Positions 58,046-63,804 of a stretch of DNA of 64,000 bases are shown piece after piece. Made by a program: the position numbers and the translations under genes. Numbering within the stretch: position 1 is the first letter of the stretch; each line of letters opens with the position of its first letter. The DNA lies in assembly GCF_003171515.1 (NCBI RefSeq), contig NC_089395.1, forward strand, positions 930,001-994,000, given 5' to 3'. The stretch is from Pyrenophora tritici-repentis (lineage: Eukaryota; Ascomycota; Dothideomycetes; Pleosporales; Pleosporaceae). The notes below the pieces were generated by a model. That model saw only the letters and a list, made by a program, of their open reading frames with translations. It was not told the origin of the DNA and did not search any database.

Positions 58046-59404
58046 TCGTAGTGTTCATAGTTGTCAACAATCAAGCCAATCCAAGCTGAGGCGTCAGATT
58101 GGATTGCTCGTTTTTTGAGAGCGTCAGCTTGGATTGTTAGGGCTAACAAGCTAAGATTGTGAGCTTGATTAAGGCTTGATTGATCGGCTTAATAACCTAT
58201 ACTAGCGCTAGCCTTAGTGTTGAGTTTCGTCGTCCTAAGTCGCCAGCCCGCACAAAAGCTCCATATTGTCGTCGTCTGCTGCCTCCTCCTCTACTACCTC
58301 GTCGTCGCCTCCGAGGCTAGCTCTTTGCCACCGTCGTACGCACTGTATTGCCGCTAGAATTTGAGGTCCTAGACGTCGTCGTCGCGGCTCTAAGAAGTCG
58401 CCTAGCTTACTAAACAGGCGCTCACACTTACAGCTCGACGCTAGGATAGAGAGTACGTTAAGCGCAAGCTTACTAAGGCTAGGGTAGCAATTGCGCATGC
58501 TCACCTAGTACTTAATAGGGTTATCTGCGTGTTCTGTACCTCTCTTAGCTGCTAGCTCGCTGCGCTTCTACCTCTTAAACTTATTCTCGTTATTAGTAAG
58601 GCTGCTAGCAGTACTAGGATTAAGTATACTATCGATTGCGTCGTCTATATCGTTTAGGATTACTACTAACAGCCTTACCGCGCGTAGTGAGGTGTTGTAC
58701 TGCGCCTAGAGCGCCTAAAAGCTAGCGTTGCTAGCCTCGAGCTAGTTAGGCTTCCTAGCCCACGCCTTATCGCAGTAGTACTTATACATCGGATAGAGTA
58801 TTGTAGCAGCGTAGTACGCGGGCGAGTTGTCTAGCTTAGAGTAGTAGTTATCGGCCTTCTGCTAAGCTGCGCGTAAGTTAATTGTAATATAATCCTTAGG
58901 CGACTTATTGTGCTCGTTGTAGTTAACCGCCTTATACGCATTAACGCGCTGCTCGTAGTAGGTAAGGAGGTATTTAAATATTAGAATTATCTTAGTAATA
59001 GCCCTAAAGCTGTCGCTTTTACCGCGCCCTTCGAGGCGCTTTGTAGCAGTCTTAAGCAGTTTTAAAATGTCTATATACTCTGTAATTACTGCCTAATTAG
59101 CACCTATAAGGCCGTCTAATCGTATCTACGGCTGCGCAACTAGCAGCTTATTGCCGCGACTTTGCGTAAATGTGTCCTCCCTTTGCACCCGCTGTATATA
59201 GTGAGTAGCGTAGGCGTTGACTACAAATTGCAGCTTTACGGCACGCTTAAAGCATAAGTAGTACGAGTTCTACCGCGTGACGACGGGTTTAACGGGCTCA
59301 AGGATCTTGCGATTGTCCGCTAACGCGCTAGACAGCAGCTTAGTATAGGCGAGGCGCTAGAAGTCCTTAAAGAGCTTATGCTGTTGTGGCGTTTTAATGT
59401 AGTT

Positions 59405-60070: not shown

Positions 60071-60648
60071 ATTGCAATAGTACTGTTGTTGTTAAGGGCG
60101 TTATTAAGCACGAAGTAACTAATTAACTGCGACGTAATCTTAAAGTCCTGCAGCGTTTTTATAATAACCTTAGCTATCCTCTCGCTACTGTGAGCGCCTG
60201 TTAGCTAGGGCAGCGCTATAGGCAAGTCCTGCAGGTCGCCTCTGCTATCGACAAAGTGCGCAACGACGCCTAGAAAGCCACGCTTGCCGCCCTTTGTCGT
60301 CTATCTATTAAAGCTAAAGTGTACTTTGCTAAGCGCCTGCGACAGTTGCAAGATAACGCGCAGCTTTAGGTGCTTATATAAGCGCGCAACGTACTAGGAG
60401 ACGCTTATATAAGACGTCTAGAGCGCTCGTTCTACTAGTAGGTTGGCAGCTTTAAGGAGGCGTCGAAAAGCTGGTGTTTCAAACTTAGAGAGAGGGTAAT
60501 TGTTCTTAATAAGCTAGCTAACAGCTGCTAGCTAGAAGCGCTAGGTATTAAAGCTAGCGAGCTCGTTAGCGACCTTCTGCAACACGCTATTATTGCTGTC
60601 CTTAAGCAGACGTTGTAGCTAGGTGGGTTTTGCAGCGACGGCCGACTT

Positions 60649-60656
60649 GCTATAGC
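60649..60656. repeat. Left 8-bp target-site duplication GCTATAGC
   Basis: Identical to 63252-63259 at the other end of the nested element. The octamer is its own reverse complement. Confidence 0.7.
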
Positions 60657-60800
60657 TACGCTGGCAAATGGGTCGGGGTGTGGTTGGGGTTGGGTTAGAA
60701 ATTTTGCGACCCCAACCCAACCCCAACCCATTTGTCAGCGCCAAGCTTAGGGTTGGGTTGGGGTTGGGTTGGGGTCGCACGGACCATGGGTTAGGGTTGG
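60657..60800. repeat. Left terminal and subterminal repeats of the nested element
   Basis: The 17-bp TIR is followed by TGGTTGGGGTTGGGTT. A second, inverted near-copy of the terminus (ACCCATTTGTCAGCG at 60727-60741) makes 60659-60741 an ~83-bp hairpin. One 33-bp unit like those at the right end (GGTCGCACGGACCATGGG core) follows, in opposite orientation. Confidence 0.7.
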
Positions 60801-60968
60801 GTTATAGTAAAAAAATTGCAAGATGTATAATATAGATTTCAATAAAAGAAAAGTTTATATAGTATCACAGTAGATTAACACAGTGTAGCATTAACTAGTT
60901 TCATTTATAATATACAGAGGCTTCGCCAGCTAGCATTTAAGCACGTGTATCTAGATATATCTTATAAT

Positions 60969-61541
60969 CTAGAGAAAAGCTAGTAACTCGCGCGCAAAGT
61001 AGCGCCTAGCCAATTGAGAATCCTTCTCTTGAATAGTAACCCTCTTTGCGTGAATAGCATTGATGTTGCAGTCTATAAAAGTTATTAAATGAAAAATAGT
61101 ATAGGGTAGATAGACTATACCCTCAAAATAACCAACTAAGAAAGCTTCTGTAGCTTCCTGAAGAGCTTCGATTGCAGATCGTTGAAAGCGGATATCGGCC
61201 TTGTGCACCTGTGCAAATTCGCGCACTACGCGGGAAAAGGGGAGTTTTCGCAAGAGTAGTTCAAAACCTCTCTGGTATCTCTTGATTTCCCGTAATGCGA
61301 CAGCTAAGCTAAATTAGAAAATAGCTGTGATAAACGACTGTGATAACCTACTGCCGGCCTTAAACTTGCGCTTCTTCTTAACAGCTACAGGTGCCTTTCG
61401 CGTAGACTTTCCTGCTACTTGACGTCTAGCCTTACTAGCAAGGGCCTTCTGAGCCGGCTTGCCGCCAGTAACTGTCTTGCCATCAGGACCACCCCGGCCG
61501 GCTTTACCGGTGACCTTAGGCCGTGGTTTTGTCCTTGCCAT
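60969..61541 (-). CDS. Divergent histone H3 carried by a transposon
   Basis: CDS complement join(60969..61072,61121..61303,61352..61541), 158 aa. The histone-fold half (from residue 64) aligns with canonical H3 almost without gaps: [70 protein letters not shown] and a final KDSQLARR. Loop 1 (QVHKADIRF) has the H3 length, not the longer CENP-A loop, so it is H3-type. The N-tail starts MARTK as in H3, but is ~20 residues longer (63 rather than ~44), Lys/Arg-rich, with [15 protein letters not shown] echoing the K14-K27 region and [10 protein letters not shown] the K36-K37 region. Both introns (48 nt each) fall exactly where needed to restore conserved H3 (A|CT for TVALREI; G|AC for FEDCN). No stop interrupts it. 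It should be able to enter nucleosomes if expressed; expression is unknown. Confidence 0.82.
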
Positions 61542-62051
61542 TGCGTAGTAGAGTAGATGATGAACGTAGGCGACGTATGTGATTAATTACTGTGATAAAT
61601 GTGGTCGACAATTAAGAAAGTAGTAGGCTGAAAGAGTTAGGTAGCTGGAAAGTTTGGGCGACGGCAATTTCCCGATTTCCGCACTAGTAAAGGCAGCAGC
61701 GCACGGACTGCATGACGTAATTTGCTGTTTCACGATCGCATACAACCATTTCTGTTGCAAAATCAGTAGCGAGCATATCATACAAACGTGTTAAACTGCT
61801 GTGATAAACGCCGAGCTCGCGCATGCGTGCAGCCCAAAAATGAAGGAATCATCGATGTGTTGATCATTTTGGGTAATTTCCGCGTTTTCGCGCTAGCGCA
61901 GGCAGCAGCGCACGGACCATTTCTAGGTGAGCATAATGCTGTCTACCCATTTCTCCAGCCCCTGACGCCCAGTAACTCCCAACACCTAATAACTCTCTTT
62001 ACTACATTGAAAACACCCCATTTACAACAGCGCATTATCACAGTCCCCGCC
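61542..62051. promoter_or_regulatory. Divergent promoter with 209-bp tandem duplication and ATCACAG motifs
   Basis: The region between the H3-like gene (-) and the transposase-like gene (+) contains two related units 209 bp apart. CTGTGATAAA occurs at 61590 and 61799, and AATTTCC...GGCAGCAGCGCACGGAC at about 61670-61708 and 61875-61917. The TTATCACAG/CTGTGATAA word also occurs at 62036-62044, eight bases before the plus-strand ATG. It is the same word that opens three introns of this element. Confidence 0.6.
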
Positions 62052-62973
62052 ATGCCTGTCGCGAAAGAGCAAGTCGGCGACGTACCTGAAGGCCTAGTTC
62101 CAGCCATCAAACTTGAACCTCCGCCTGGGTTCGAACAAGATGAGTGGGAGCAGCTTACCGATGTAATAATCACAGCCATTTATCACAGCTTATGCTAATA
62201 TAAGCAGGGATTTGCGTGTGAAGCTGACGAGATTGACGGTATCTTAGATCAAAGAGGTAGTGGGGGTTCACGAAAAGGCCGACCTATCAATTTGAGCGTC
62301 CCCTATACTGGCTCTCTGAGTGGTAGCGCCCGTGCTATTGCTCAACGTGAACGCAAAGCTCTTTTCGATAAAGAGGAGAAGGTACTTGAAAGCGTTAGAA
62401 CAGCCGACCGCTCCGCGAAGTACCAACTGAAGAAATCGCTTTTGCAACAGCCTAAGTATAAATTAGCAAATAGTGCTAGACAGGCTAAGCTGCTAGAGAA
62501 AGAGTGGGATATACTTTCAGAGAAGCGGTTTACCCAGAAAAAGTCTGGTAAGTTATCACAGCTGTTTATCATAGACATCTGCTAATAGACTATCCCAAGT
62601 GGCGAAGGATATACTAGCAATACCAATTGCTCAGGTTGGGGTTGAAAGAGTTTTCAATGTTGCTAAGGATGTTATTGGTAGTCGGAGGCACCGACTATCT
62701 GCCCGGACAATACAGCAGATAATGGTTCTTAAGGATACAATATCTCAAGAGGAAGAACAGGGTCTAGACTACCTAGTTGCTCAATTAGGGGAGGATGGAG
62801 AGCCAATTGACGAGGTTAATGATCTTTTTGAGCTTCCAGCCTCGTTAGAGCATACCTTCGATATAGATGAGGAGAACCAGACTACAGAAGAAGAGTCGGA
62901 GGAAGAGGTCCAGGAGGAGCGTCAATTGCCACCTCGAAAGCGCCAGCGTCCTCAGCGCTACCGTGATAATTAG
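62052..62973 (+). CDS. hAT dimerisation-domain protein without a catalytic core
   Basis: CDS join(62052..62162,62208..62547,62600..62973), 274 aa. Exon 1 codes a short acidic leader (MPVAKEQVGDVPEGLVPAIK). Exon 2 codes a basic, helical region (GSGGSRKGRPINLSVPYTGS, then ARAIAQRERKALFDKEEKV and YQLKKSLLQQPKYKLA) that I do not recognise. Exon 3 opens with the hAT dimerisation motif VAKDILAIPIAQVGVERVFN, then SRRHRLSARTIQQIMVLKD, and ends in an acidic tail and a basic RKRQRPQRYRDN. The RNase-H-like DDE core found in hAT transposases is missing, so the protein cannot cut DNA alone. It could be an accessory or DNA-binding subunit, or a deleted transposase fused to captured sequence. The introns (45 and 52 nt) are related to each other and to intron 1 of the H3-like gene. 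The second needs an AAG acceptor. Confidence 0.6.
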
Positions 62974-63059
62974 CTGTGTTAATATATCTCGTTTTATGTA
63001 TCTACTATATCATCAACGTGTACACATTATCTTAATTAAGTGTTGTTCCGTTAAAGTAC

Positions 63060-63251
63060 CCAAAAAATATAACCCAACCCCAACCCAACCCAACCCAACC
63101 CAAGCCCAACCCTACCACTTGGTCTGTGCGACCCCAGCCCAGCCCTAACCCATGGTCTGTGCGACCCCAACCCAACCCTAACCCATGGTCTGTGCGACCC
63201 CAACCCAACCCCAACCCAAGACTGGGTATACCCAACCCATTTGCCAGCGTA
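63060..63251. repeat. Right subterminal repeats of the nested element
   Basis: After a run of AACCC/AACCCC units come three near-perfect 33-bp units (starting TGGTCTGTGCGACCCC, at about 63120, 63153 and 63186) and then the 17-bp TIR. The C-rich strand here pairs with the G-rich strand at the left end, so the arrays are inverted relative to each other. Confidence 0.75.
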
Positions 63252-63259
63252 GCTATAGC
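63252..63259. repeat. Right 8-bp target-site duplication GCTATAGC
   Basis: Matches 60649-60656. Confidence 0.7.
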
Positions 63260-63804
63260 TATAGCCGCGCTTAGGCAGCTCTAAGTGTCGCTGCGCTAAC
63301 GACGTTAAGAGCGTCGTCTTATATGTCTTAACGCTAGTATCTATATACTTATGCTCGTAGTAGTAACGGCACACAAAGTATAGCTTACTCGGGTCCTTCA
63401 GCAGCGTAACGCGGTAGCTATAGTAATAGATTTAGCTCTTGCGCGACTTCTGCGACGAGAGCGGCTTTATATATATGCGTAAACGCCCCTAATTAATTCC
63501 CTTAAAGTCGTCTATAAGGCTCGCGTCTAGAGCCTCTTGCAAGGTCTTATTGTCTAGGGCTGCTGCCGACGAGGCTGCTATTACCCTCTCGCTGCCCTCG
63601 GTAGGCGCGACGATAGCGTCTTCAGGCCGCGACTCGCGTAGTTGCGACTTAAAAGTTGAAGCCTAGGACGCCTCTACGAGAGCTCTGCGAGGCGATAGCT
63701 AACTATTAACGGCTATAGGCTGGCTAACAGTGCCGCGGGCGGTGGACGATTTAACGCGTTTTTTAGGGCGAGTAAGGTCATCAGAGGCGCGTTTCGTAGG
63801 AGGC

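Follow-up and report, generated by a model that had tools for sequence, protein, structure and literature searches.

The evidence from the window, by which we mean the whole 64,000-nucleotide stretch of Pyrenophora tritici-repentis DNA that was analysed, supports an intact, divergent and intron-bearing histone H3 gene, hereafter H3L, as the mobile cargo of a hAT transposon. This element is very probably the short, non-autonomous form of the H3L hAT transposon already published from P. tritici-repentis (Manning et al., 2013, G3; PMC3538342). The first-pass annotation had stated that capture of H3 by hAT elements may already be known in Pyrenophora, and this was correct: the two elements are the same by every feature that could be compared with the accessible text of that paper. 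Known since 2013, the element is hence no discovery; what we add are the H3L lineage and the points on the K9 position and on a tandem doublet motif. In the accessible portions of the literature on H3-carrying hAT elements, we found no description of the doublet motif or of the breadth of the H3L lineage.

H3L lies on the minus strand, where the stretch from 61541 to 60969 runs from an ATG to a stop and encodes 158 aa after removal of two introns, both with GT..AG ends (Table 1). Splicing restores the frame with canonical-like H3 joints (FKAG/TVALRE and YFE/DCN), and independent annotation bears out the gene model: the 158-aa ‘histone H3’ proteins deposited for P. tritici-repentis (P0001, P0002) match H3L at 99% over 100%. 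The spliced product has, as the first-pass annotation had proposed, the complete histone fold of a canonical H3: it is recovered by the Pfam Histone profile (E=9.4e-32), and in neither of two alignments with solved H3 chains is the fold gapped, the only gap falling in the tail. An AlphaFold model of the lone H3L chain (mean pLDDT 50.8) is too weak to add support. The N-terminal tail, which had been described as extended and rewritten, is indeed longer and altered, with an insertion, but is rewritten only in part. The K9 position is occupied by T23 (with TGGK14 as the anchor), so that H3L departs from the conserved canonical tail with its ARKS around both K9 and K27, but ARTK4 and TGGK14 are kept. 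The structure alignments show none of the extra loop 1 residues of CenH3 (CENP-A) in the window’s H3L.

Table 1. Features of the H3L-carrying element, in window coordinates.
Feature	Coordinates	Strand	Evidence
Left target site duplication (TSD), 8 bp, GCTATAGC	60649..60656	.	TSD comparison and empty sites
Short (non-autonomous) hAT element, 2,595 bp	60657..63251	.	17-bp TIRs TACGCTGGCAAATGGGT
Left TIR, TACGCTGGCAAATGGGT	60657..60673	+	Sequence
Left subterminal telomere-like GGGTT(A/G)GGG tract, inverted copy of the right tract	60669..60810 (approximate bounds)	.	
Left subterminal doublet, 1+1 mismatches	60862..60883	+	
H3L gene, 3 exons, 158 aa, complete histone fold	60969..61541	-	Splicing, deposited proteins, Pfam, structure alignments
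H3L intron 2, 48 nt, splits codon of D106 (H3 numbering), without doublet	61073..61120	-	
H3L intron 1, 48 nt, splits codon of T45 (H3 numbering), contains doublet	61304..61351	-	
Doublet TTATCACAGTCGTTTATCACAG in H3L intron 1, 0 mismatches	61325..61346	-	
Doublet upstream of the H3L start codon, 0+2 mismatches	61577..61598	-	
Doublet with weak second half, 0+3 mismatches, between H3L and the chimeric gene	61786..61807	-	
Doublet with weak first half, 2+0 mismatches, just upstream of the chimeric gene	62022..62043	+	
Chimeric gene, 274-aa product, hAT dimerisation domain	62052..62973	+	Splicing, P0129/P0130, Pfam
Chimeric-gene intron 1, doublet at 62167-62188	62163..62207	+	
Chimeric-gene intron 2, doublet at 62553-62574, ‘gactat’ junction at 62588	62548..62599	+	
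Right subterminal doublet, 1+1 mismatches, inverted versus left; overlaps the last chimeric-gene codons	62961..62982	-	
Right subterminal telomere-like tract	63062..63235 (approximate bounds)	.	
Right TIR, complement of TACGCTGGCAAATGGGT	63235..63251	-	Sequence
Right target site duplication, 8 bp, GCTATAGC	63252..63259	.	TSD comparison

The gene was first noted to lie wholly within a 2.6-kb element with TIRs and a target duplication, and this is what we find: the combination of short TIRs and an 8-bp TSD is that of the hAT superfamily, and H3L, being inside these TIRs, is mobile rather than a fixed locus. When the flanks are joined they have five uninterrupted genomic matches (90-96% over 785-800 bp), and these empty sites in the flanking repeat directly show insertion into an older repeat. 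The target site (60257-60656 and 63260-63659) also has many partial copies at ~70%. Several further features were observed in and around the element. A host telomere-repeat-binding protein might attach to the telomere-like subterminal GGGTT(A/G)GGG tracts; a 46-nt direct repeat (61663-61708 and 61872-61917, 80%) lies between H3L and the chimeric gene; and the remnant of a different hAT transposase is found nearby (58235-58504; Dimer_Tnp_hAT, E=5.3e-16).

A search of the genome (40.9 Mb, 41 contigs) recovered at least 19 full-length short copies with both TIRs and 11 long ones of 5.84-5.88 kb, in addition to truncated copies. Identical 8-bp TSDs flank 15 of the 19 full-length short copies and 8 of the 11 long ones. 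The four short exceptions comprise two on contig C4 with swapped flanks, and one each on C7 and C18 that have a common mismatched pair. The two on C4 (L003 and L006; C4:2928691-2936819) are in opposite orientation and have traded their flanking 8-mers, as expected had the segment between the two copies been inverted. Judged by the flanking 8-mers, C18:6455-12398 is the reverse complement of C7:1128624-1134567, C18 being a small and possibly redundant contig; since its two copies repeat those of C7, there are about 17 distinct short insertions. We examined 33 H3L genes, 22 from short elements (three of these truncated) and 11 from long ones: the protein is identical in 27 and the frame open in 30, so that H3L is intact rather than frequently interrupted by stops, again in line with the first-pass annotation. 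At the DNA level, 19 are identical to the window’s gene, eight have one shared silent change, three have one missense change, two are frameshifted and one, the older copy L051, has decayed (14 of its 21 differences are G-to-A or C-to-T).

Beyond H3L, the element encodes a second, chimeric protein, whose origin is seen in the long form. This carries a transposase, a ‘central ORF’ and H3L, with the sequence ‘gactat’ present in both the second intron of the central ORF and the transposase; in the short form, ‘gactat’ stands at the junction that joins the central ORF to the transposase. With the junction intron spliced, the chimera is 274 aa in length, as deposited for P. tritici-repentis (P0129, P0130). 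The hAT dimerisation domain (PF05699) is detected with E=1.6e-20 in the long-form transposase piece and with E=1.6e-7 in the chimera. In the long-form putative transposase a hAT-like RNase-H match scores 18.1 bits, below the cut-off of 27, and no BED match is among the domain matches listed for it; its N-terminal exon joint is ambiguous, with no unique model for the N-terminus. As the short element is without a full transposase, it probably moves in trans, mobilised by the transposase from long copies. The central ORF has an acidic C-terminus and is largely helical in a weak structure model, from which one might guess that its product is a partner or chaperone.

Deposited proteins place relatives of H3L in P. 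teres, Alternaria, Paraphoma, Massariosphaeria and metagenomes. Aligned to P0002 they show 51-70% identity, 49 columns being invariant over the seven sequences, and in six of the seven aligned rows the fold is gapless before the C-terminal end. In P. teres 0-1, H3L (CFE70_001393, P0094) and the central ORF (CFE70_001394, P0124) have consecutive locus tags, and the contigs recorded for them are equal in length. P0094 is missing ~10 residues of the fold, which are present in another P. teres H3L (P0054), and loop 1 of the metagenomic relative P0069 is two residues longer; hence, the standard fold length is not universal among the relatives. The 22 central-ORF matches listed include proteins of P. 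tritici-repentis, P. teres, P. seminiperda, Boeremia, Exserohilum, Parastagonospora and metagenomes. In a phylogenetic tree of the histone fold (seven H3L rows and 19 others, including host H3 and CenH3), H3L stands apart from both canonical H3 and CenH3 with support of 99/97 and in 100% of 200 bootstrap trees; the branches are long, and long-branch attraction may be a source of this grouping, a caveat that we retain. We also considered H3L as the CenH3 (CENP-A) of this fungus and rejected this: a separate host CenH3-like gene was found, and H3L groups apart from it. Based on these protein comparisons, with the link to a transposable element coming from Pyrenophora only, H3L appears to be an older and wider lineage that spans several Pleosporales. 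The first-pass annotation had seen in H3L a lineage under its own selection: the seven H3L rows do form a lineage of their own, and selection on it we infer only from protein conservation and open frames.

Within this lineage the tail has a distinctive pattern. When the seven sequences are aligned by eye with TGGK14 as the anchor, TGGK14 is kept in all of them and K9 is absent in five, its position being taken by T (P0002), L (P0054), A (P0058, a partial record, and P0065) and P (P0066); P0067 and P0069 have K. The K27-like (A/T)RK is kept in most members. With so few sequences (seven), the loss of K9 alongside a retained K14 hints at selection against methylation but does not prove it.

We tentatively propose, somewhat short of an even chance, a reading of these features in which H3L would be no passenger: it would be an H3 variant long kept by the element family, which can pair with host H4 and wrap DNA and which, in this member, is without a methylatable K9. 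The fold suggests that H3L can join nucleosomes, and it is probably transcribed, as H3L ESTs have been reported (PMC3538342). Such nucleosomes would resist the H3K9me heterochromatin that silences transposons; such shielding of the element DNA from H3K9 methylation would follow the idea of the first-pass annotation that H3L could dilute silencing marks, and is close to a question raised in the accessible text of the same paper. Speaking against a role in chromatin are the retention of K9 in two of the seven sequences, that of the K27-like motif in most, and the drift suggested for H3L by Manning et al. (PMC3538342). It is about equally possible, if again short of likely, that H3L is instead a captured histone gene that has persisted through the recent spread of the element as a passenger with no effect on host or element. 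The copies are too young to show selection (19 of the 33 have the same DNA sequence as the window’s gene), the tail and helices of H3L vary, and P0094 of P. teres is without part of the fold; the suggested drift and the RIP stop codons in the amplified H3 copies of Mycosphaerellaceae (PMC6710886) are also consistent with a passenger. A mere passenger, however, is harder to reconcile with the invariant columns and the largely gapless fold among relatives that have diverged to 51-70% identity, or with H3L still adjoining the central ORF in P. teres.

A further feature that we report is a tandem doublet, TTATCACAG-N4-TTATCACAG. Scanning the long element (copy L041) with a fixed 4-nt gap and up to four mismatches allowed, we found 12 distinct doublets (13 raw matches, one overlapping with other spacing), whereas 100 Markov shuffles gave 0.26 on average and never more than 3. 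Six of these are intronic, in H3L intron 1, three central-ORF introns and two transposase introns, i.e. in six of the seven modelled introns, which leave out the N-terminal joint of the transposase. The other six comprise two upstream of H3L, a weak one upstream and another downstream of the central ORF, and an inverted subterminal pair lying ~0.2 and 0.27 kb from the element ends. The window’s short copy has eight, within 60862-62982. Genome-wide, with two or fewer mismatches, there are 158 matches (the reversed-pattern control gave 0 and 1), about 155 of which were located: 152 in copies of the H3L element, one in a transposase fragment and two in other repeats. The last two (L059, L060) lie close to reading frames of zinc-knuckle (Gag-like) type and appear to be chance matches. 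Three diverged relatives have deposited proteins in which an intron is read through, and these read-through stretches are compatible with the doublet at 0, 1 and 2 mismatches. We propose that the doublets are putative binding sites for an element-encoded protein or a host GATA-type factor; a protein bound there would mark or regulate the element’s own promoters and transcripts.

Two other origins of the doublets were weighed. That they are relics of one intron sequence multiplied within the element by introner-like gain, and not protein-binding sites, is rather unlikely: this would account for the six introns in three genes that carry them in sense orientation, each doublet beginning 4-11 nt into its intron from the 5’ end, but half of the 12, the inverted subterminal pair included, are outside introns, and the half-site spacing is uniform in all 12. 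Moreover, the only matches identified outside the element copies are the two in other repeats and the one in a transposase fragment, and the near-identical introns in many unrelated host genes that characterize introners were not found in the genome-wide doublet scan, among the ~155 of 158 matches located. TGATAA is the core recognized by fungal GATA factors, and it is contained in the reverse complement of the motif, CTGTGATAA; hence, the doublets could be tandem host GATA-factor sites that make the element responsive to nitrogen or light. Their presence between two divergent genes is in keeping with this, but the repeated half-site exceeds the GATA core in length and intron positions in one orientation are unexpected for a plain enhancer site, so that we regard plain GATA sites as unlikely.

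Combining the proposed roles of H3L, the central ORF and the doublets, one could envisage a chromatin module kept on a transposon across Pleosporales, in which an H3 variant mostly lacking K9, an adjacent central-ORF chaperone or DNA adaptor, and doublets through which the element’s proteins recognize its DNA or transcripts, would together mark the element copies with K9-unmethylatable nucleosomes; this composite picture is speculative and, as a whole, improbable. In any case, the element lends itself to testing whether silencing can be escaped by a transposon that brings its own histone: its H3 variant is young, intact and multi-copy, its host fungus can be cultured, and P. teres has a relative. 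It also sharpens two questions: what binds the TTATCACAG doublets, and does the loss of K9 recur because it is helpful to the element?

Among the known systems, the closest is that of Manning et al. (PMC3538342), a P. tritici-repentis hAT element of 5.6 kb with a transposase, a ‘central ORF’ and H3L (PTRG_00559.1), of which a 2.3-kb form arose by recombination at ‘gactat’ to yield an in-frame chimeric protein. Its defining features, the gene set of the long form and the ‘gactat’ chimera of the short form, are both found here. As far as the accessible text goes, the two further have in common the host species (by the deposited proteins), the position of H3L between the TIRs, near-identical copies and two frameshifts. 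The lengths differ (~5.6/2.3 kb versus 5.87/2.60 kb here), with a long-minus-short difference of 3.3 kb there and 3.28 kb here, and we examined 33 H3L copies versus 26. In the main text of that paper, as distinct from its supplements, ‘subterminal’ is absent and ‘intron’ occurs once, in the legend of figure 5.

The introner-like elements of fungi (PMC4457414) resemble the doublets in that introns of one genome share sequence; they differ in that here the shared sequence is almost entirely within one transposon family and half of it is outside introns. The H3-carrying hAT elements described from Pseudocercospora, Cercospora and Sphaerulina (Dhillon et al., 2019; PMC6710886) likewise amplify an H3 sequence, with TIRs and an 8-bp TSD where findable. 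In contrast to the present element, that of P. fijiensis is ~9.5 kb with an intronless H3 retrocopy, present in one or two copies per element, the extra H3 copies carry RIP stop codons, and the authors’ hAT consensus sequences are reported to be without similarity to the P. tritici-repentis element. The suggestion in that paper of a recent and independent capture of H3L from the host H3 gene in P. tritici-repentis would fit the near-identity of the copies within the species, seen here and in PMC3538342, but is highly improbable, as host H3 is just 65% identical to H3L over residues 41-149, has a single intron within codon Q19 against the H3L introns at T45 and D106, and is, like CenH3, not what H3L groups with, its affinities being to the relatives in other genera. 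By these comparisons, what is recent in P. tritici-repentis is the amplification; the H3L lineage itself does not appear to stem from a recent copying of the host gene. Finally, the deRIP consensus of repeat R25 of Stagonospora (Parastagonospora) nodorum, which has weak DNA-transposon homology, matches a P. tritici-repentis histone H3 (Hane and Oliver, 2010; PMC3017866). R25 differs from the present element in being RIP-degraded; its H3 match fits an old H3L lineage, and a central-ORF relative (P0140) is deposited from the same species.
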